A stretch of DNA of 64,000 nt. Source: Siphonodentalium dalli (lineage: Eukaryota > Mollusca > Scaphopoda > Gadilida > Siphonodentaliidae). The DNA is taken from the NCBI GenBank assembly GCA_032622095.1, contig CP136068.1, positions 16,287,729 through 16,351,728 of the forward strand, read 5' to 3'. How positions within the stretch are numbered: the stretch's first letter is position 1; the number at the start of each line of letters is the position of its first letter. Positions 33,366-60,440 of this stretch are shown here, one piece after another. The notes under the pieces were generated by a model that searched no databases, had not been told where the DNA came from, and saw nothing but the letters and a program-made list of their open reading frames with translations. Made by a program: the position numbers and the translations under genes.

Positions 33366-34064
33366 ACGTAGAACTGTATAGCTTCTATTTGTGGCACATG
33401 AGGGGTTTCTGAATTATGACGTAGACAGGACACCGATAATGATGAATGTTCACTAATCCTGATATGGCACCAGAGATAAAATGGGAAATAAACAGTATCC
33501 GTTATCATGAAAGCCCTTGTTGCACTTCCATCCGAACTGTGTGGTGAACCATTGACCGATTTAATTTGGATATGGCTCAACATGAGCATTATGCCAAAGT
33601 TATATTTGTCTCAGGAAAACTACGAAAACCAACAGCGTCTGTCCGAGTGTGCGTCATTTCGTCCGTGCGTGCGCATTTTGGTTTGCGAACGATAACTTTA
33701 GTAACGTTAAAATTGTATTAATTTTCTGCGCATGTTTTATCTCTTTACTCCCCATAATCGTCCCTGGACGCTTTTGCACTATTTCCACATAAGCGCATGT
33801 GGGCGCCTCGCAACATATCCATAGACGCGCATAAGAGCGCGTTACCAGACTTCCCCACAAGCGCCCTAGAGCGCCACACTAGGCCCAGACTGTACTAATG
33901 AGTTCGCCCCTATGCCCCCCGCTTTTGCTATGTTTCTAATCGAGACCACCCGGTTATGTCAACTCGTTATTTGCCTATCTAATAACAATAAACGTGGCAC
34001 CGTGTGCATCGCGCGCGACACATGCTGTGTTACTTGGCTACCATTCTAAGTATTTACGAACAAC
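33366..34064. other. Upstream region of the transposase remnant
   Basis: From about 33780 to 34020 the sequence is richer in CG dinucleotides than its surroundings. It leads into the transposase start codon. No terminal inverted repeat belonging to the transposase could be identified. No TATA box is obvious at a convincing distance. Confidence 0.35.
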
Positions 34065-35679
34065 ATGGCTGCAACATTTTCGAAACAGCAAGTGATCGAC
34101 ATGTTAATGGGAGATGATAGCGATTTTAGCGGAGATTGCGGTTCCTCGTCATCAGAAGATTCAGACGACGATTACTCTGCTCCTGCTACCAGCGACAATG
34201 TGACCTCCATCGATGATAGCAGCTTGAATAATAACCCGATTGGCTGGTCAAATAAACTTCGAAAGGTATCACTTCAGCCATTTACCCAAAGGACAGGGCC
34301 AGTTATACCAGATGAATTCGATACTGATACAGCAACAGCTTTGGAATATTTCAATTTTATGTTCTCGCCATCGAAGTATGCCGAAATAGCCAGGCATACT
34401 AACAACTATGCCAAATGGAAAATGGAAGAAAAGGGCGAGACTGATAAATACTGGTCTGATATTTCGGAACTAGAACTTCGTGCGTACATCGGTATGAACA
34501 TCATGATGGGTGTGAGTGACCTTCCCTCATACAAGCAGTACTGGTCACATGATGAGTTTATCGGAAACGCCGGCATCAGCAAAGTTATGAATCGGCGCAG
34601 ATTTGAAAAAATCACAGAATACTTCCACGTCAGTGACCGAGAGAGCGAACCTGCTAAAGGGACAGATTCGTACGATCCACTATATAAGGTTCGCGACATC
34701 ATCGACTCATCACTAACAACATTGAAATCGTGTTTACAAGCAATACATGCCGGCAAAACCAATAAAACGAGGGATCAAAATATGGATGATGTACGATGCC
34801 ACCAATGCCTACCTGTTAAACTTTGAAGTATACCTTGGAAAGCATTATTTCAAACCGTCTGGAAAAGGTCTCGGGTATGATGTGGTTACGTCATTGTCAT
34901 CGGATTTGTGTGACAAAAATTACTGTTTGTTCTTTGATAACTATTTTACGAGTGTGCACCTCATGCAGGACTTACTAAACGATGGGTTTTACTCGTGTGG
35001 CACCGTTTGGCAGAACAGGAAAGGATTCCCGAAGGATTTACAGCGACTGAAGAAAATGAATCGAGGTGACTATAACACTAGGCAGGATGGCGAATTTCTC
35101 ACGGCAACGGTATGGCAGGACAAGAAACAAGTGTTCACCCTTAGCACGATGACTGACCCAACGACAGATATCATGGCTAATCGGCGCCAGGGAAAAACAA
35201 TTTTTGAAGTGACTCAGCCGATGAGCATATTTATGTACAACAAGTACATGAATGGTGTTGACAAACATGATCAGTTGAGGATGACGTATCTCCTCGGTCG
35301 CGAAAGGAAAAAAGCATGGAAATGCATCTTCTGGTTGGTCGCCAATTCATCAATAGTTAACAGTTTCATCTTGTTCAAAGAAACATCAAAGAGACATAAT
35401 TCTAAGAAGGTGTTCACGCATATGGATTTTAGTATTGAACTGGCTCATCAACTGATTGCAGAATATTCTTCTAGAAAACTCAAAGCACAAGAAGAGCCAC
35501 GTGCCCTCAATGTATCACCAGAAAACTCAAACGGACACGTGTCCACACACATGGGACGCAAGAACCGATGTCGGGTTCATCTGAACTCAAAAGAAATAAA
35601 AGAAACTGTATTTGGTTGCAAACTCTCCAATGTTCATCTATGTAAGGACGGTTGCCATTTCAAGTATCATTGTAGTTGA
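34065..35679 (+). pseudogene. piggyBac transposase (PGBD4-like), disabled by an internal deletion and frameshift
   Basis: Two overlapping frames together spell one piggyBac-family DDE transposase. The first (34065-34826) has an acidic Ser/Asp-rich N-terminus and the family core ('FTQRTGP', 'FNFMFSP', 'YIGMNIMMGV', 'RRRFEKITEYFH'); homology stops near 34733. The second frame takes over at about 34735 with 'YKQYMPAKPIKRGIKIW' and runs to a stop at 35679. It keeps the second catalytic Asp ('FFDNYFTS', about 34936) and the third ('NGVDKHDQ', about 35260). A Cys-rich C-terminal tail is present but lacks a clean first CxxC. The block normally between the two halves, the '(S/T)IDE' stretch with the first catalytic Asp, is missing, and the join is out of frame. 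The start is supported by 'acaacATGG'. The enzyme should be inactive. It sits between two TTAA miniature elements. Confidence 0.9.
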
Positions 35680-50963: not shown

Positions 50964-51091
50964 TCCAATAGCTCCAAGCAACTCCGAGACTGTGAATGGT
51001 GATCAGACTGAACAAGATCACGATTACCTCGAACTGTTAGATAGTGGTGACGTGGGTTCTGGAATGGTGTATACAGCCAGCAGATCTATCG
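50964..51091 (+). CDS. Exon A, first copy of the tyrosine-motif cassette (partial gene)
   Basis: This 128-nt exon is preceded by 'tgttttcatacag' (acceptor) and followed by 'gtgagaat' (donor). It enters with one base finishing a codon and leaves with one base starting the next; only this phase is open, the other two having stops. It encodes 42 full codons, starting PIAPSNSETV and containing DYLEL and VYTAS. Aligned with exons B and C, the first YxxL has become SETV, so this copy keeps only the second YxxL motif and the third tyrosine. It has no signal peptide or membrane segment; an acidic, Ser/Thr-rich, tyrosine-bearing stretch suits a cytoplasmic tail. The rest of the gene is not visible. 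It could be a decayed or diverged copy. Confidence 0.65.
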
Positions 51092-51740
51092 GTGAGAATT
51101 TACTGTTGTACTACTAATTTACTGCTGATCTACTGGTGATTATTTACTGTCGTACTACACATCATACTTTGGGAATGTATTGCTGTACTAAAAAGCCAGT
51201 GATAATTTAGTATCGGTATACCGATATACCGGCTAAAATTTGCCGAGAATACCAATCCACTAGTGCTAATTTATTATATACCGATATACCCGTAATAATT
51301 TGCTGGGAATACCAATCTACCAACGATAATGTCTTATCGGTATTCCGATATATCGGTTATAATTTGCTGGGAATACCAATTTACTAGTGATAATTTATTA
51401 TCGGTATACCGATCTACGGTTTTATTTCGCTGTGAGTACCAATCTACAGGTGAGAGTTTATTGTCATAAAACAAATCTTCTTGTGAGAATCTATTGTAGT
51501 ACTACCAACCTACTAGGTAAGTCTGGTATTGTACTACATATTTACGGCTATAATATAATGTTTTACTACAAATTTATCGGTAATTATCTTTCTAGAGAAC
51601 GACCGTTGAAAAGCTGTTGTCTTTCTATAAATGTACCGTTGACAATGGTCTGTGTGTATTACACATCTACTGCTGAGAATTTGCTGTTTATTCTACACAT
51701 ATACTGCTGATAATTTACAGTCTAATTACAAATCTCACTG
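51092..51740 (+). repeat. Intronic minisatellites after exon A
   Basis: Degenerate units of 'gataatttactg..gtactac' (about 30-40 bp) flank a run of about 80-bp units built on 'cggtataccgatataccgg' and 'gctgggaataccaatctac'. These start at the donor site itself, as they do after exons B and C. Confidence 0.7.
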
Positions 51741-51917
51741 CTAACGTTTTTCCTGCATTGCCGTGTTCAATAATCCTAATGTTTGTTGTTACTTTTGCAA
51801 AACGAACTTTTGGATGAACATATTTATTTTACCTCGTCTAGCTGAATGCAGTGTAGGGGCAGGAGGTATAGTATATATGGGTGATGGCATAATCTGCCAC
51901 CCCAGTAAAAAACAGGC

Positions 51918-52300
51918 ACTAAAGTGATGCCAAACACTGCGGTTGTGTGATTAAATGGAAATGGAGAACACAAATATTGCACAAAGCACTGCTCAAAGTA
52001 GATATTTTTTACGAATATTACTCCAAATTTACAACACCATAGTTTTATATATTTATTAAAAGCAATGGGTATCAATGAGGAGAATATTTTCCTTAGTTTA
52101 TCGCCGTTTGTTGCTTGTAAATGTAAATATGTACAATTGAGCGTAGTCCTGACGGTGTTTTATATGAAGTTCTGTAGTCGACTTTTACGATATTTTGAGC
52201 GATGTTTGTGGATTGCTACATCCCCACGGTTGGCATTGCGCCTGAGTACTAGTAATTCATCAGTTTCACGCACCCGAACAAGTCCATAATATGTCTTCAA
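51918..52300 (+). repeat. Dispersed repeat, copy 2 (inside the intron)
   Basis: Homologous to 47145-47530. The introns after exons B and C lack it at the corresponding place, so it was probably inserted in this copy after the cassette duplication, or lost from the other two. Confidence 0.75.
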
Positions 52301-52432
52301 TGAAACAAAAATCAAACAGTAACCAAACACTAATAACTTGGTAAAACGCATATATTATTTGATTAGAGCATTTAACACTATTATTATTTACTTGGACTTA
52401 TATTAAATGTTAAGAAAAACGTTATTTTGCAG

Positions 52433-52457
52433 CAAGTCATCGGAGCCTTCCTGTCAT
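52433..52457 (+). CDS. Microexon A' (25 nt)
   Basis: Bordered by 'ttattttgcag' and 'gtgagtaac'. It enters needing two bases and leaves with two bases, so it joins exon A to exon B in frame. It encodes the core SHRSLPV. Microexons B' (54062-54086) and C' (55555-55579) have the same length, phase and 'cttcctgtca' core, which makes chance unlikely. Confidence 0.65.
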
Positions 52458-53211
52458 GTGAGTAACAATACAATGTATCGCGATTCGTAGTTTAAGCTGT
52501 TACAGAGTTAGTTCCAAATACTAATATCGAATGTTTACATAACCCATCTGGTCTACAATAAACCAGGTGCTCATACTTGCCTGTTATTTGTTCACAAAAT
52601 CACGAATGTTTTTGGTGAGGTAGCAAAATATCACAGATGAATTCGTGCTTAGCCCAAGTGATCAAGTAAATAATCTTGCGTTATTAGGGATTTGGTACAC
52701 CAAATAAAATTCACCCGAAGTCACATATTGTTAACCAATAATTTTGCTATTGGAAAGTGGAACCCTCACTTTGATCGTTTTTCAAAGGTTTATTTTGAAA
52801 TATATCCTGCTTTGGTGGCCTTCGTTCACATTACCATCTCGCACGAAGTGTAGTTAATCAAATTGTGCATCAGATACGAACGTTTATTATAAATACAGCA
52901 CTACTAAATTATTCGGAGATTTGCACATGGCCAACTGTGTATTTCGTCAGCTGTCAGTCAATGCTAATTTCGGATGGCAAGATAGCTATCTCGTAACTAT
53001 TGTTGAACAATGGAAATTCAATTAGGGTAAAACATATACTCCAATGATTTGTTCACGTGTCACTATGTTAACAATGCTTACGGAATGTGAAATATTTAAC
53101 TTTTGTTTTGAAAATGATGGCACCCGTTAAGGTAACATGCAACCCTTAACACGAGTTGTAGTTTAGCGAAACTGTGCTGGTAATCAACCCATTGGTTTAC
53201 TTTCCATACAG

Positions 53212-53351
53212 TCCAATAGATCCAAGCACTTACGAGACATTGCATACTGAGCAGACTGCCACAGACAAAACATACTGTGGACTGGATGGCGTCGTGGTGG
53301 AGATTGATAACGTCAGGGCTGCATACATGTATACTGACTGCAAATCTCTGG
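53212..53351 (+). CDS. Exon B, ITAM-like cassette copy
   Basis: This 140-nt exon has acceptor 'tttccatacag' and donor 'gtgagaat', with the same phases as exon A. It encodes 46 full codons beginning PIDPSTYETL. It carries STYETL, then TYCGL exactly 10 residues after the first YxxL, then AAYMYTD. The pattern YxxL-x10-YxxL lies within the wider range described for ITAM-type motifs (classically 6-8, up to about 12), which recruit SH2-domain kinases when phosphorylated. Endocytic YxxL sorting signals are an alternative reading. Compared with exon C, changes inside the YETL and YCGL cores are silent while the linkers vary, which suggests selection on the motifs. Its place within the protein is unknown. 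Confidence 0.75.
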
Positions 53352-53800
53352 GTGAGAATTTTCTGTCGTACTACACATTTACTGCTGACAATTTTCTCTC
53401 ATACAACAAATCTACCGGTATTGATTTATTGTTGTATTAGAAATCTACCGACAATAATTTACTTTCGTAATACAAATCAATCCATGGTAATTTAATGTCG
53501 GACTACTAGTGTTTATTTATGGTCGATATACAAATTTACCTGTAAGACTTTGATGTTGTATTTCACTTCTACCGGTAAGAATCTGCAGTCGCACTGCAGT
53601 GCGACCATTGACATTTTACCGTCGTGCTACAAATCTACTGTCGGACTACCAACCTACAAAATGTATGGTCGTAATACAAATCTACTGGTAGGATTTTGAT
53701 GTTGTACCACATTTCTACCGGTAAGAATTTAATTTTGTACTACTAATCTACCAGTAAGAATCTACAGTCTTACTATATGGGTACCGTTGAAAATTCACTG
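53352..53800 (+). repeat. Intronic minisatellite after exon B
   Basis: Degenerate 'tctaccggtaagaatttactgtcgtac'-type units, beginning at the donor site. Confidence 0.65.
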
Positions 53801-54061
53801 TTCTACAAATGTCATTGCCCACGTTATTTTGCATGACAGTGTTCAATAAAGCTGAACGCCGTCGTTATTATTGCAAAACGAATTTTTGGCCGAACATAAT
53901 TTTTACGATAATGAATAACTAATTATATAATAATAATAAAACCAATAATAAAAAATAGTTAAACATTAAACACTTGATAGGAAGGCAGTTAGGTATATGT
54001 ATTAATACAGATATCATTATTGTTATTCACATTGACTTATTTTAGAAGTTGTGTTTTGTAG

Positions 54062-54086
54062 GAAATCTTCAGAGCCTTCCTGTCAC
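54062..54086 (+). CDS. Microexon B' (25 nt)
   Basis: Bordered by 'gtgttttgtag' and 'gtgagtacc'. It reads NLQSLPV in the phase set by exon B and passes two bases to exon C. Length and phase are identical to A' and C'. Confidence 0.7.
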
Positions 54087-54821
54087 GTGAGTACCAATGT
54101 CATATATCGTACCAAACAAGAATACCGAATGTATATATATAACCAACGTTTTCTACACTAGACTCGCTGTATATAATTGCCTATTATTTGTTCACGAATT
54201 CACGCAGATCTGTGGCAAGGTAGTAAAATATCACTGATGAATATTATATTAACATTTACATAGCCCGTGTGTCAAAGTAAATCCTAAACCGTGGTTGGTC
54301 AACTGTCAATTAGGAAATTAATTGTACCAATCAAAACACGCCCGATGTCACATAACCAGTAATGTTATAATGTATCTGGAATCCTCAGACAGGTCAATTT
54401 TCATAGGTTTATTTCAAAATATACCTTGTTTCGGTTCCTTTATTCACATTAGCATATCGCTCAAATCACAGTTGTGCAGACAGTGCACCATTTACAAACA
54501 TTTATTCAAAATATATCATTATTAAAATTTCAGTAGGTATGTGCACAACCAACTTTGTAGTTCGTCATATTTCAGTCAATGTTGTCTACTATAGAACAAT
54601 GGCAAGCCAATTGCGAACGTTCCAACATCATATTCCAATTGTTTGTATACGTTTCACTATGAATGATATCATGTACAGTGCTTAATGAATGTGGAACATT
54701 GTAACCTTGTTTTGGGAATGATGGCACCCATGGAAGTAACATGCCTGTAACCGTGAACATGAATTGTACCCATTGATAAACTGCTCTGTTAATCAAACTG
54801 TTGGCCTATGTTTTCATACAG

Positions 54822-54961
54822 TCCAATAGACCCAAGCACATACGAGACATTGCATATTGAGCAGACGAACGGCGATCAACAATACTGTGGGCTTGATGGC
54901 ATCGTATTAGACAGCAGTAACGCCCAGGCTGCATACATAGCTGCTGACAGCAAACGTATCG
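54822..54961 (+). CDS. Exon C, ITAM-like cassette copy
   Basis: This 140-nt exon follows 'gttttcatacag' and precedes 'gtgagaat'. It encodes PIDPSTYETL, then QYCGL with the same 10-residue gap between YxxL motifs as exon B, then AAYIAAD. It is the same length as exon B and 1610 bp downstream of it. Third-position changes (gat/gac, act/aca, ctg/ctt, gga/ggg) in the conserved core point to purifying selection. Whether it is transcribed cannot be told from sequence. Confidence 0.75.
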
Positions 54962-55250
54962 GTGAGAATTATTGACTGTCACGATAATTTACTGTCCTAT
55001 CCTACAAATGTACTACTGATATACTACAAATATAATGCTGTCGTATTCTACAAACCTACTTCTGATAATTTACTGTTCATATATTACAAATGTACTGCTG
55101 ATAATTTACTATGCTATTCTAAAATTTACTGCTGAGAATTTACTGTCCTATACTAAAATGTACTGCTGAGTATTTACTGTCCTATACTAAAATGTACTGC
55201 TGAGAATTTACTGTCCTATACTATAACTCTGCTGTTGAGAATTGGCTGTC
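54962..55250 (+). repeat. Intronic minisatellite after exon C
   Basis: About 33-38-bp units of 'tactgctgagaatttactgt' plus 'cctatactaaaatg', the most regular of the three intronic arrays. Confidence 0.8.
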
Positions 55251-55554
55251 GTATTAACCATCTCCAATTCCCACTGCCCACGTTTTTTGTCGTGTTCAAT
55301 ATTGCGAATCATCGTCATTATATATAGGATGAAGAACTAAATGTATTGTATTAGCTGACAGTTAGCTTGCGATACCTATCTGTAAACTTGTTAGGTCCAT
55401 TGGCAATCAGACAGTAATAAAACATTAATGAAACAATAATCACACATGCATCACACATTAATCAAACACTAATCAAACAATAATACAACATTGGTCATTG
55501 CATATATCACTGTTTTTATTCACATCGACTAATTTTTTAAATTGTAATTTGTAG

Positions 55555-55579
55555 CAAATCTTCGGAGGCTTCCTGTCAG
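55555..55579 (+). CDS. Microexon C' (25 nt), last recognisable exon
   Basis: Bordered by 'gtaatttgtag' and 'gtgagtacc'. It reads NLRRLPV and leaves two bases for a further exon, so the transcript should continue. No fourth long exon was found before the CAGGGG element at 55914 or after it within the window. Confidence 0.65.
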
Positions 55580-56971: not shown

Positions 56972-58130
56972 ATTACCGCCCGGGACCGCCCGGGGACCGC
57001 CCGGGACCGCCCGGGCGGCCCCACGGGACCGTGGACACAATATATCGACGGTATAACATAGCGACATGCCACATGAGGGCAACATAGAAAAATTTACTCG
57101 CTCGCTCGTCTCCGGCCGGTCATATTAACCCCACAAATGCCGATATTGGCTAAAAGAGCCTGGGTGATTACTTGTGTCTTCGTGTGTTTTCAGACAGATT
57201 ATTTTGGTGATTCTCGGTAGTGCAATTCACCTGAGTGTGAATTCCATGTATTGACTCGTTGACGCGTCCACGGCCAATGTTATTAACCCCTCAAATTCTA
57301 GTAAAATAGTGTATAAACAAAAGAACCTTGGAACCGCCCGGGTGGACCCATGGGCCCGTGGACACTATATATCGACGTTATAACATAGCGACATACCCCA
57401 CGAGGTCAACCTAGAAAATGTTACTCGCTCGCTCGACCCCGGCCGGTGTTATTAACCCCTCAAAATCCGACAAAATGGTATATAAACAAAAAGAACATTG
57501 GGACCGTCCGGGACCGCCCGGGTGGCCCCACGTGCCCGTGGACACTATATCTCGACGTTATAACGTAGCGACATACCACATGAGGTCAACCTAGAAAATT
57601 TTACTCGCTCGCTCGACCCCGGCCGGTGTTATTAACCCCTCAAAAACGACAAAATGGTATATAAACAAAAAGAACATTGGGACCGCCCGGGACCGCCCGG
57701 GACCGCCCGGTGGCCCCATGTGGCCGTGGACACAATATCTCGACGTTATACCATAGCGACATACCCCACGAGGTCAACCTAGAAAATGTTACTCGCCCGC
57801 TCGACCCCGGCCGGTGTTATTAACCCCTCAAAATCCGATAAAATGGTATCTAAACAAAAAAAATTATGATCGCCCGGGCGGCCCCATTGGCCCGTGCACA
57901 CTATGCATCGACGTTATAACGTGGCGACATACCCCACGATGTCAACCTAGAAAATCTTACTCGCTCACTCGACTCCGGTCGGTATTATTAACCCCTAAAA
58001 ATCCAATATTGGCTAAGAGGGCACGGACAGCTCGGTGTCTTCTTTTGATTTCGGACAGCATATTTTGATGATGAATGGTAGTGCAATACCACCTGTTAGT
58101 GACTTCCAGATATTGACTCGCTGACGCGTC
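56972..58130 (-). repeat. GC-rich ~180-bp tandem array, first orientation
   Basis: About five units. Each has one to four copies of the 10-mer GACCGCCCGG, then 'ccgtggacac', 'cgacgttataacatagcgac', 'aggtcaacctagaaaat', 'ctcgctcgctcgaccccggc' and 'gttattaacccctcaaaa', and then 'atggtatataaacaaaaaga'. The first and last units carry an extra ~180-bp module ('ccaatattggctaa', 'attttg.tgat', 'gtgcaat'). The minus strand is given because it is the orientation of the larger opposed array. Confidence 0.9.
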
Positions 58131-58764
58131 AACACAAAATCCCGCAAAATACCGTATCACCATAAATATTCGGCTCTACATGATCGTAAATATCGCAATT
58201 TTCTTGAATGTTTTCAATAAAAATTAATACTTTACACCTATAATTTTTATATTTGGACACGAGCGGGTGTAATTGTGTTGATTTCGACAGCAACTGCTTG
58301 TCTGAAGAGAGCCGCGGCAGTTGTTTGAATGTGTTGATATCAATTAGCAGTAAAACGGTATCGCAATTGTTATGTTGTATACATTAACCACTTCACAATA
58401 ATCAGAAGACATATTGGCGGATTTAAACCGAAACTTTGTTTTCATAACACTTGGGGAAGACGAACAGGTAATCTGGTGACAACAGTGGAGATTTGCGATG
58501 AGGTTTCCGTGTTTTTATTGCAATCGAAAATGGTCGTAATCCCAAAATCTTCTTGGTGCTAGACAATAACGATCAAGATGACGAAGAGAGTACTTGTGAT
58601 ATTGGAAACCCGTGTACTTAATTTGCTTACCGACGAATCACACGATATTACGTTATGGGGTAGATTATATATAATCGTGTGTGAATTAAAAATAAAATAT
58701 AATTTTAAATATCTTAAAATCATGCGACCACGTATTCGATTCACGATTCCATCCATGGTGCTGT
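58131..58764. other. Spacer between the two opposed arrays
   Basis: AT-rich with no recognised gene. It separates the two arrays and would form the loop if they paired. Confidence 0.5.
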
Positions 58765-60440
58765 ATCCGTGATATTGTGTCCACGGGCACGTGGGGCCAC
58801 CCGGTCGGTCCCGGGCGGTCCCAATGTTCTTTTTGTCTATATACCATTTTATCGGATTCTGAGGGGTTAATAACGCCGACCGGAGTCGATCGAGCGAGTA
58901 CCATTTTGTAGGTTGACCTCGCGGGGTATGTCGCTACGTTATAACGTCGAAATATAGTGTCCACGGGCCCATGGGGCCTACCGGGCGGTCTCGGGTGGTC
59001 CCAATGTTCTTTTTGCTTATATACCATTTTATCAGATTTTGAGGGGTTAATAACACCGGCCGGAGTCGAGCGAACGAGTACCATTTTGTAGGTTGACCTC
59101 GTGGTGTATGTCGCTACGTTATAACGCCGAGATGTAGTGTCCACGGGCCCATGGGGCCTCCCGGGCGGTCCCGGGCGGTCCCGGGCGGTCGCAATGTTCT
59201 TTTTGTTTATATACCATTTTATCGGATTTTGAGGGGTTAATAACACCGGCCGGAGTCGAACGAGCAAGTAACATTTTCTAGGTTGACCTCGTGCGGTATG
59301 TCGCTACGTTATAACGTCGATATATTGTGTCCACGGGCACGTGGGGCCACCCGGGCGGTCCCAATGTTCTTTTTGTTTATATACCATTTTGTCGGATTTT
59401 GAGGGGTTAATAGCACCGGCCGGGGTCGAGCGAGCGAGTAACATTTTCTAGGTTGACCTCGTGAGGTATGTCGCTATGTTATAACGTCGAGATATAGTGT
59501 CCACGGGCCCATGGGGCCGCCCGGACGGTCCCGGGCGGTTCCAAGGTTCTTTTGTTTATACACTATTTTACCAGAATTTGAGGGGTTAATAACATCGGCC
59601 GTGATCGCGTCAACAGGTCAATACATGGAATTAACACTCAGGTGTATTGCACTAGCGAGAATCACCAAAATAATATGTCTGAAAACACACGAAGACACCA
59701 GTAATCACCAATGCTCTTTTAGCCAATATCGGCATTTGTGGGGGTTAATATGACCGACCGGAGACGAGCGAGCGAGTACATTTTTCTATGTTGCCCTCAG
59801 GTGAGATATTGTGTCCACGGGCACGTGGGGCCACCCGGGCGGTCCCGGGCGGTCCCAATGTTCTTTTTGTTTATATACCATTTTGTCGGATTTTGAGGGG
59901 TTAATAACACCGACCGGGGTCGAGCGAGCGAGTAAGATTTTCTAGGTTGACCTCGTGGGATATTGCGCTATGTTATAACGTCGAGATGTTGTGTCCACGG
60001 GCACGTGGGGCCACCCGGGCGGTCCCGGGCGGTCCCGGGCGGTCCCAATGTTATTTTTGTTTATATACCATTTTGTCGTTTTTGAGGGGTTAATAACACC
60101 GGCCGGGGTCGATCGAGCGAGTAACATTTTCTAGGTTGACCTCGTGGGGTATGTCGCTATCTTATAACGTCGAGATGTTGTGTCCACGGGCACGTGGGGC
60201 CACCCGGGCGGTCCCGGGCGGTCCCAGTGTTCTTTTTGTTTATATACCATTTTGTCGTTTTTGAGGGGTTAATAACACCGGCCGGGGTCGAGCGAGCGAG
60301 TAACATTTTCTAGGTTGACCTCGTGGGGTATGTCGCTATGTTATAACGTCGATATATAGTGTCCACGGGCCCATGGGGCCGCCCGGGCGGTCCCGGGCGG
60401 TTCCACTGTTCGTTTGTTTATACACTATTTTACCTCAGTC
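58765..60440 (+). repeat. GC-rich ~180-bp tandem array, opposite orientation
   Basis: About nine units in reverse orientation to 56972-58130. The word 'gtgtccacggg' falls at about 58777, 58957, 59137, 59327, 59497, 59811, 59991, 60179 and 60358. Each unit reads GGGCGGTCCC (one to three copies), 'caatgttctttttgtttata', 'taccatttt', 'gaggggttaata', 'gagcgagcgagta', 'aggttgacctcgtg'. One unit (59486-59800) contains the same extra module as the outermost unit of the other array. The last unit is truncated near 60440, just before a hAT terminus. Confidence 0.9.

Follow-up and report, generated by a model that had tools for sequence, protein, structure and literature searches.

The window analysed here, 64,000 nucleotides of Siphonodentalium dalli DNA, probably contains the first half of an exon array that encodes the cytoplasmic tail of a single-pass Ig/FN3 receptor and in which a signalling module has been multiplied. 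Its exons are confirmed as real coding exons, and they most likely encode the intracellular tail of a cell-surface receptor of the immunoglobulin type. The type of receptor is known; what is new is the make-up of the tail.

Structure of the exon array

Six exons on the forward strand of the window form three cassettes, each composed of a main exon and a 25-nt microexon. Cassette A opens with a 128-nt main exon of a first type (50964-51091), in which SETV replaces the first tyrosine and YLEL is kept, followed by a microexon encoding ASHRSLPV (52433-52457). The main exons of cassettes B (53212-53351) and C (54822-54961) are 140 nt long and both encode YETL-x10-YCGL with a further tyrosine, in AAYM and AAYI, respectively; their microexons encode GNLQSLPV (54062-54086) and ANLRRLPV (55555-55579). 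AG acceptors and GTGAG donors were present on all six exons, and the phases were consistent throughout, with main exons running from phase 2 to 1 and microexons from phase 1 to 2. The positions, matching borders and phases given in a preliminary description of this DNA, and its YETL-x10-YCGL reading of exons B and C, were therefore confirmed. As a cassette runs from phase 2 to phase 2 overall, its tandem duplication adds a whole 55-aa module and leaves the frame unbroken.

The same description had counted three copies. In fact six main exons are present, along with five microexons and a single broken relic, and the array reaches local position 77384 (C8:16365112), beyond the end of the window. 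The later main exons lie at C8:16355866-16356005, C8:16360860-16360999 and C8:16364973-16365112, and a candidate terminal exon lies at C8:16367425. The distance from the window end is about 13 kb for the last cassette and about 16 kb for the candidate terminal exon. The start of the latter resembles an exon found after the 10.4 Mb array on the same contig. None of the six main exons or five microexons has lost its frame, phases or splice sites, and splicing them in silico gave a single open tail of 328 aa with 11 YxxL motifs, ten of which sit in five YETL-x10-YCGL pairs. A cassette at local position 71787 was rejected as a relic, its frame running into a stop after about 20 residues. No Pfam family scored above cut-off on the stretch of tail encoded by cassettes A-C, and the tail is likely to be disordered.

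Coding constraint across the cassette family

A protein query with exon B found 46 matches in the genome, all stop-free, of which six fall in a near-identical duplicate locus. A microexon pattern with splice borders, allowing up to 3 mismatches, matched 40 sites genome-wide, and the reversed pattern matched none. Main exons were 140 nt long in 28 of the 43 extracted. Thirty-nine were distinct, and omission of two degenerate ones left a set of 37. No stop occurred in the coding frame of any of these, and each of the other two frames was stopped in 37/37. When the 37 were aligned as unconstrained nucleotide sequences, all 74 gaps were 3, 6, 9, 12 or 15 nt long.

Cassette arrays occur on three long contigs (C2, C3 and C8) and differ in size by locus; C8:10.39 Mb, for example, has six main exons where C2:26.54 Mb has two. 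We rejected the C3 array as a separate family; it appears to be duplicated from the 3' part of C8, with about 81-92% identity across the largest colinear blocks. Among the matches listed, translated stretches of C3 and the C8 3' end are mostly 90-100% identical. When the 5' flanks of the C2, C3 and C8 arrays were compared for upstream exons, the only similarity apart from transposon-like matches lay directly before cassette 1.

A dN/dS near 1 between exons B and C had been named in advance as evidence against the tail reading. The ratio for this pair is 0.56 (dN 0.278, dS 0.500; 46 codons, a small sample), so that objection fails for B and C. It was 0.46 over 25 ordinary-type C8/C3 cassettes and 0.64 over all 37 distinct main exons. 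Values of 0.98 over four first-type cassettes, the group of exon A, which is the odd one of the three, and of 2.22 over eight C2 cassettes, where dS is very low, mean that constraint is not clear for every copy. Counting changes on a tree, we found 2.4 amino-acid changes per column at five anchors (Y1, its +3 Leu, Y2, its +3 Leu and Y3) versus 6.0 in the other 41 columns (permutation p 0.00025 for the anchor contrast), with third-position changes similar at 2.8 and 3.3. The second tyrosine, kept in 35/37 copies, showed the fewest changes (one). Exons of recent duplicate pairs were 96.1% alike versus 93.4% for their flanks, a slight excess only.

Receptor context of the array

The ectodomains of Draper and MEGF10 have EGF-like repeats, and the preliminary description had compared the tail with receptors of that type. 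At C8:10.37-10.405 Mb, a paralogous locus contains Ig-like exons, FN3, a membrane segment, a basic exon and then an array, in phase. Its TM exon, 28-nt basic exon (RRARKH), cassette 1 and microexon 1 join open and in phase, the FN3-to-TM phase being judged by eye. The FN3 exon matched Pfam fn3 at 3.6e-9, and the hand-joined ectodomain gave matches above cut-off to PF13927 (Ig_3, 1.6e-15, three stretches), PF07679 (I-set, 5e-10) and PF00041 (fn3, 4.2e-8), that is, the combination of Ig/I-set with FN3 that marks the Ig superfamily. An array standing behind Ig, FN3, TM and basic exons indicates an Ig/FN3 receptor tail, not a Draper/MEGF one. A Draper/MEGF10/EGF-type receptor was rejected as a candidate, since the Pfam matches to the paralogue ectodomain include no EGF family; cysteine-rich frames of the window, inspected by eye, held nothing EGF-like. 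The proposal that a receptor tail multiplied a tyrosine module by duplicating its exons in tandem gained support from the paralogue, whose array follows the FN3, TM and RRARKH exons in phase.

In the paralogue, TM and basic stop-transfer exons join the tail in phase; for the window array, we infer splicing to Ig/FN3/TM exons 123 kb upstream. The nearest such exons of the family share the strand of the array and span about C8:16.2087-16.2153 Mb. They include homologues of the paralogue's last two Ig-like exons and FN3 (C8:16.208-16.213 Mb), a TM exon (C8:16215159-16215269), which is the nearest to the array, and a basic exon (C8:16215822-16215849). Much repeat DNA intervenes, and after a cassette at C8:16227617 comes a second basic exon (C8:16228678-16228705) in place of a recognised microexon. 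The repeat-rich 123-kb gap and this second basic exon make the 5' joining ambiguous.

A conceivable alternative, which we consider improbable, takes the window array for a tail duplicate that is detached from any ectodomain or in decay, with working receptors only at arrays like that at C8:10.39 Mb. Within the window we detected neither a TM nor a basic exon, and the FN3 list also has no site there. Eight family queries (E <=0.01) against the 110 kb between C8:16228000 and cassette A gave no additional exon of the ectodomain, TM or cassette kind. When the 10 longest of 421 frames in that interval (60 aa or more, after setting aside 88 satellite and 2 low-complexity frames) were scanned against Pfam, transposase pieces were all that exceeded the cut-off. 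The C2 and C3 arrays have no nearby FN3 or TM match in the lists, so detached copies seem to occur, and the broken relic inside the array would suit decay. Against this stand the intact main exons and microexons joining into an open 328-aa tail, the B-C ratio of 0.56, the candidate terminal exon resembling that after the 10.4 Mb array, and the second basic exon, which is in phase with cassette A.

Class of the tyrosine motifs

The relevant passages of two reviews define a canonical ITAM as two YxxL/I spaced 6-8 residues apart. Two YxxL/I are retained together in 27/37 copies, but the spacing is x10 in 21/37 and 13 or 15 in 6/37, the pair being absent in 10/37. The canonical acid at -3 is missing from the first tyrosine, whose context DPSTYETL has it at -4; an acid does precede some YxxL/I at -3 in 26/37 copies, at the second tyrosine by alignment rows. 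Given this spacing, and as an ITIM pattern also fits 23/37 copies, the earlier ITAM reading gained only partial support. A hemITAM, defined in the source passages as a single DGYxxL-type motif, does not describe a joined tail with five YxxL pairs and zero DGYxxL. As far as residues can tell, the cassette motif is ITAM-like, not canonical.

YxxPhi is an endocytic signal motif, and YETL and YCGL both match it. Together with the spacing of 10, outside 6-8, and a third tyrosine beyond the pair retained in 33/37 copies, this would suit a tail for sorting or scaffolding, in which YxxL units serve as endocytic signals or adhesion-scaffold sites and not as paired SH2 docking. We regard such a role as the least probable one, as single YxxPhi signals have no need of the pairing kept in 27/37 copies, 21 of them at x10.

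The first tyrosine of each cassette might instead be an ITIM recruiting Shp-type phosphatases, making the tail inhibitory, which also seems unlikely. The ITIM pattern [I/V/L/S]xYxx[L/V/I] fits 23/37 copies; this count is itself blind to place, and the alignment rows put the fit at the PSTYETL site. The primary paper on the oyster Ig receptor CgIgIT2, of a similar general kind, has the word inhibitory in its title, but review text (PMC11999971) terms the motif of this receptor an ITAM. The second tyrosine, for all its retention, misfits an ITIM, with mostly Gln or Lys at -2.

Under the preferred reading of a multiplied signalling module, clustering of the ectodomain by ligand would lead Src-type kinases to phosphorylate the YETL and YCGL tyrosines. 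The phosphorylated sites could then bring in tandem-SH2 proteins of the Syk type, or other proteins with SH2 domains, with signal strength possibly set by repeat number or exon skipping. Because the tyrosine unit is copied several times, one receptor could offer many docking sites for signalling proteins.

Comparison with known receptors

CD3 zeta carries three ITAMs in tandem on one chain with hardly any ectodomain. The present array would likewise put several tandem motifs on one chain, but as five YxxL pairs in a tail that putatively belongs to a large receptor with Ig and FN3 domains. CgIgIT2 of Crassostrea gigas is, by description, also a single-pass invertebrate receptor that combines several Ig domains with a tail tyrosine motif; the review text (PMC11999971) gives it five Ig domains and a single classic ITAM, and mentions no repeated cassette array. 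The genes of the allorecognition receptors Botryllus FcoR and Hydractinia Alr likewise cluster at loci and encode ITIM, hemITAM or ITAM tails; unlike here, the FcoR ectodomain is described as combining Ig and sushi, and a tandem array of a single tail module is not described in the passages on either (PMC12065747). Arthropod Dscam is likewise an Ig/FN3 receptor with spliced tail exons, one with an ITAM-type YxxL (PMC6851185). This family differs in having one FN3 exon beside the TM exon, on which the Pfam model of the Dscam C-terminal FN3 scored 19.8 bits, below its cut-off of 39. The chelicerate Dscam arrays are 5' according to the title of PMC4835542, whereas the present array lies in the tail. 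Searches of open-licence literature, including passages of PMC11999971, PMC12065747, PMC6851185, PMC7026191 and PMC3819593, brought up no comparable tail array.

Implications

We tentatively suggest, as an idea with some but limited likelihood, that this lineage built a modular signalling tail of variable copy number, by amplifying a frame-neutral two-exon YxxL-pair cassette within a gene and copying it across loci and chromosomes. If so, exon skipping could give receptors graded or switchable signal strength, and the inner side of the receptor would have been diversified as Dscam diversifies the outer side. To our knowledge, the rationale for multiple ITAMs and the effect of repeat number have been studied largely in a few mammalian chains; the same module in differing numbers at loci of one genome would offer a natural series for dose tests. 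The family would also add to the evidence that signalling by Ig-receptor tyrosine motifs is widespread in invertebrates.

Results

The preliminary description located six exons in the window, and their positions proved exact when the sequence was inspected and joined in silico. In the main exons of cassettes A, B and C (128, 140 and 140 nt), only the first base after the AG belongs to a split codon and the last one before the GTGAG donor opens a new codon, while the accompanying 25-nt microexons return the reading to its starting phase. The cassette thus runs from phase 2 to phase 2 and can be duplicated without frameshift. When joined, a cassette reads ...STYETLHTEQTATDKTYCGLDG...AAYMYTDCKSLGNLQSLPVT, and the next cassette follows. 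Short degenerate repeats resembling TTTACTGCTGATAAT were seen in the introns after main exons (window 51100-51760 and other cassette introns), and recur among introns of different cassettes.

Three cassettes do lie in the window (C8:16287729-16351728, in a genome of 2.23 Gb and 9 contigs), as had been described, but the array is not limited to three. Counted from the window start, further main exons are found at local 68138-68277, 73132-73271 and 77245-77384. Microexons lie at local 70882 and 76458, and near local 71787 there is a broken relic cassette. A candidate last exon, reading (G)DNVHGSDVTDV-stop, is located at local 79697 (C8:16367425); its start resembles, by eye, the exon after the paralogous array at C8:10.37-10.405 Mb. 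Splicing in silico from A to this terminal exon gave 328 codons followed by a stop, with 11 YxxL motifs, 10 of which form five YETL-x10-YCGL pairs.

A protein search of the genome with exon B returned 46 matches, all stop-free and all on the three contigs C2, C3 and C8; six of them sit in a near-identical locus at C8:15.16-15.26 Mb. Cassette A, too diverged for this list, was picked up by DNA comparison. The microexon pattern was found at 40 sites, compared with none for the same pattern read backwards as a control. All 40 are on these three contigs, each about 3 kb or less from a main-exon match by coordinates, and their likeness is partly selected because the search tolerated at most 3 mismatches. 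On C2, cassette units are dispersed at 15.94, 26.30-26.32, 26.54, 26.98, 39.13 and 39.43 Mb (loci L006, L007, L013 and L036-L041), with two main exons wherever both were located. In the only two compared, at 26.54 and 15.94 Mb, similarity sets in abruptly about 280 nt 5' of cassette 1.

Coding state and constraint were analysed in 37 main exons, left from 43 extracted (39 distinct) after removal of two degenerate 95-nt ones. As the extraction script picked donors in the expected phase, the phase of exon lengths does not by itself count as independent evidence, whereas gap and stop counts do. All 74 gaps in an unconstrained nucleotide alignment were multiples of three, and stops occurred in 0/37 exons in the coding frame and in 37/37 in each of the two other frames. 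The first, second and third tyrosines are retained in 32, 35 and 33 of the 37, respectively. Amino-acid changes on the tree averaged 2.4 in the five anchor columns (the three tyrosines and the leucines at +3 of the first two) versus 6.0 in the other 41 (permutation p 0.00025); third-position changes were 2.8 and 3.3. Pairwise NG86 dN/dS was 0.64 over all 37 distinct main exons (658/666 pairs usable), 0.46 for 25 ordinary C8/C3 cassettes and 0.98 for four first-type cassettes (grouped by eye, A included). Eight C2 cassettes, which are of two kinds, gave 2.22 at a mean dS of just 0.051. Exons B and C differ by a dN of 0.278 and a dS of 0.500. In seven recent duplicate pairs, identity was modestly higher in exons (96.1%, 942/980) than in flanks (93.4%, 841/900). 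From these class values and identities, ordinary cassettes look constrained and first-type cassettes relaxed; constraint on the C2 copies is uncertain.

Comparing the 5' flanks of paralogous arrays revealed shared upstream exons. At C8:10.37-10.405 Mb, five Ig-like exons (assigned by size, phase and Pfam, the last run on the joined ectodomain) are followed in order by single exons for FN3, the TM segment (IIGGAVGGVVFFAAVVVAVLVWLR) and, in 28 nt, the basic stretch GRRARKHNS. The array after them has six main exons, of which one is degenerate, and five microexons. Joined from the TM through the basic exon and cassette 1 to microexon 1, the reading is open and in phase. Pfam matches above cut-off on the joined ectodomain were Ig_3 (three stretches), I-set and fn3; the tail part A-C gave none. 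The closest solved chains by sequence were those of titin, NCAM2, myosin-binding protein C and contactin-5, all general Ig/FN3 proteins. Genome-wide, there are 22 FN3-related exons (16 on C8, one with a stop) and 24 related to the last Ig-like exon (both at E up to 0.001), and seven TM-related ones (E up to 0.1). No FN3 or TM exon appeared beside the C2 and C3 arrays in the genome match lists, from which weak or diverged exons could escape. The C2 units resemble tail fragments that were copied with no ectodomain attached.

A search for a TM or basic exon within the window found none. The nearest family ectodomain (two Ig-like exons, FN3 and TM) lies at about C8:16.2087-16.2153 Mb on the same strand as the window array. 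A basic exon follows at C8:16215822, then a first-type cassette at C8:16227617, whose donor (GTGATA) is weaker and for which no microexon was recognised. A second basic exon stands at C8:16228678. Over the roughly 110 kb between this exon and cassette A, eight family queries (E up to 0.01) detected no family exon. Worked out by eye, phase is kept both in TM-basic-A and in a path from TM and basic exon through the 16227617 cassette and second basic exon to A. We infer that the window array is the tail of this gene, reached across a long repeat-filled intron.

The locus at C8:15.15-15.26 Mb, about 1.1 Mb away, is near-identical to C8:16.21-16.37 Mb (99.8% over 3,015 nt) and has its Ig, FN3 and TM exons and cassettes arranged likewise; either one locus was duplicated very recently or the assembly contains it twice. 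Within the presumed intron, a satellite-like array with 196-nt internal repeats occupies window 2223-25638. Between the 16227617 cassette and A lie 111 kb at this locus, compared with 70 kb in the duplicate at 15.2 Mb, a difference which suggests that this array has expanded. Two overlapping frames at window 34050-35676 match PF13843 DDE_Tnp_1_7 (7.1e-47 and 5.1e-26), the piggyBac type of transposase, and window 57333-60431 holds a tandem repeat of about 180 nt, partly G+C-rich and apparently in both orientations.

Discussion

Our results show that a YxxL-pair module has been multiplied and, judging from the paralogue, where it comes after the TM, that it is cytoplasmic. The tyrosine pair is ITAM-like and departs from the strict definition in two sequence features, with a spacing of 10 instead of 6-8 and no acid at -3 of the first tyrosine. 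The first tyrosine could also act as an ITIM, and both could act as sorting signals. In the mechanism that we propose, a ligand would cluster the receptor, tail tyrosines would become phosphorylated, and SH2 proteins would be recruited to the tail.

Among invertebrate Ig receptors, tails of the ITAM, ITIM or hemITAM kind have been described in oyster CgIgIT2 (PMC11999971), Botryllus FcoR and Hydractinia Alr (PMC12065747), and Dscam (PMC6851185). Our searches of an open-licence library, which covers few subscription papers, turned up no published account of such a repeated tail cassette array. Invertebrate Ig receptors with a tyrosine-motif tail are thus a known kind, and the repeated cassette tail appears to be the new element.
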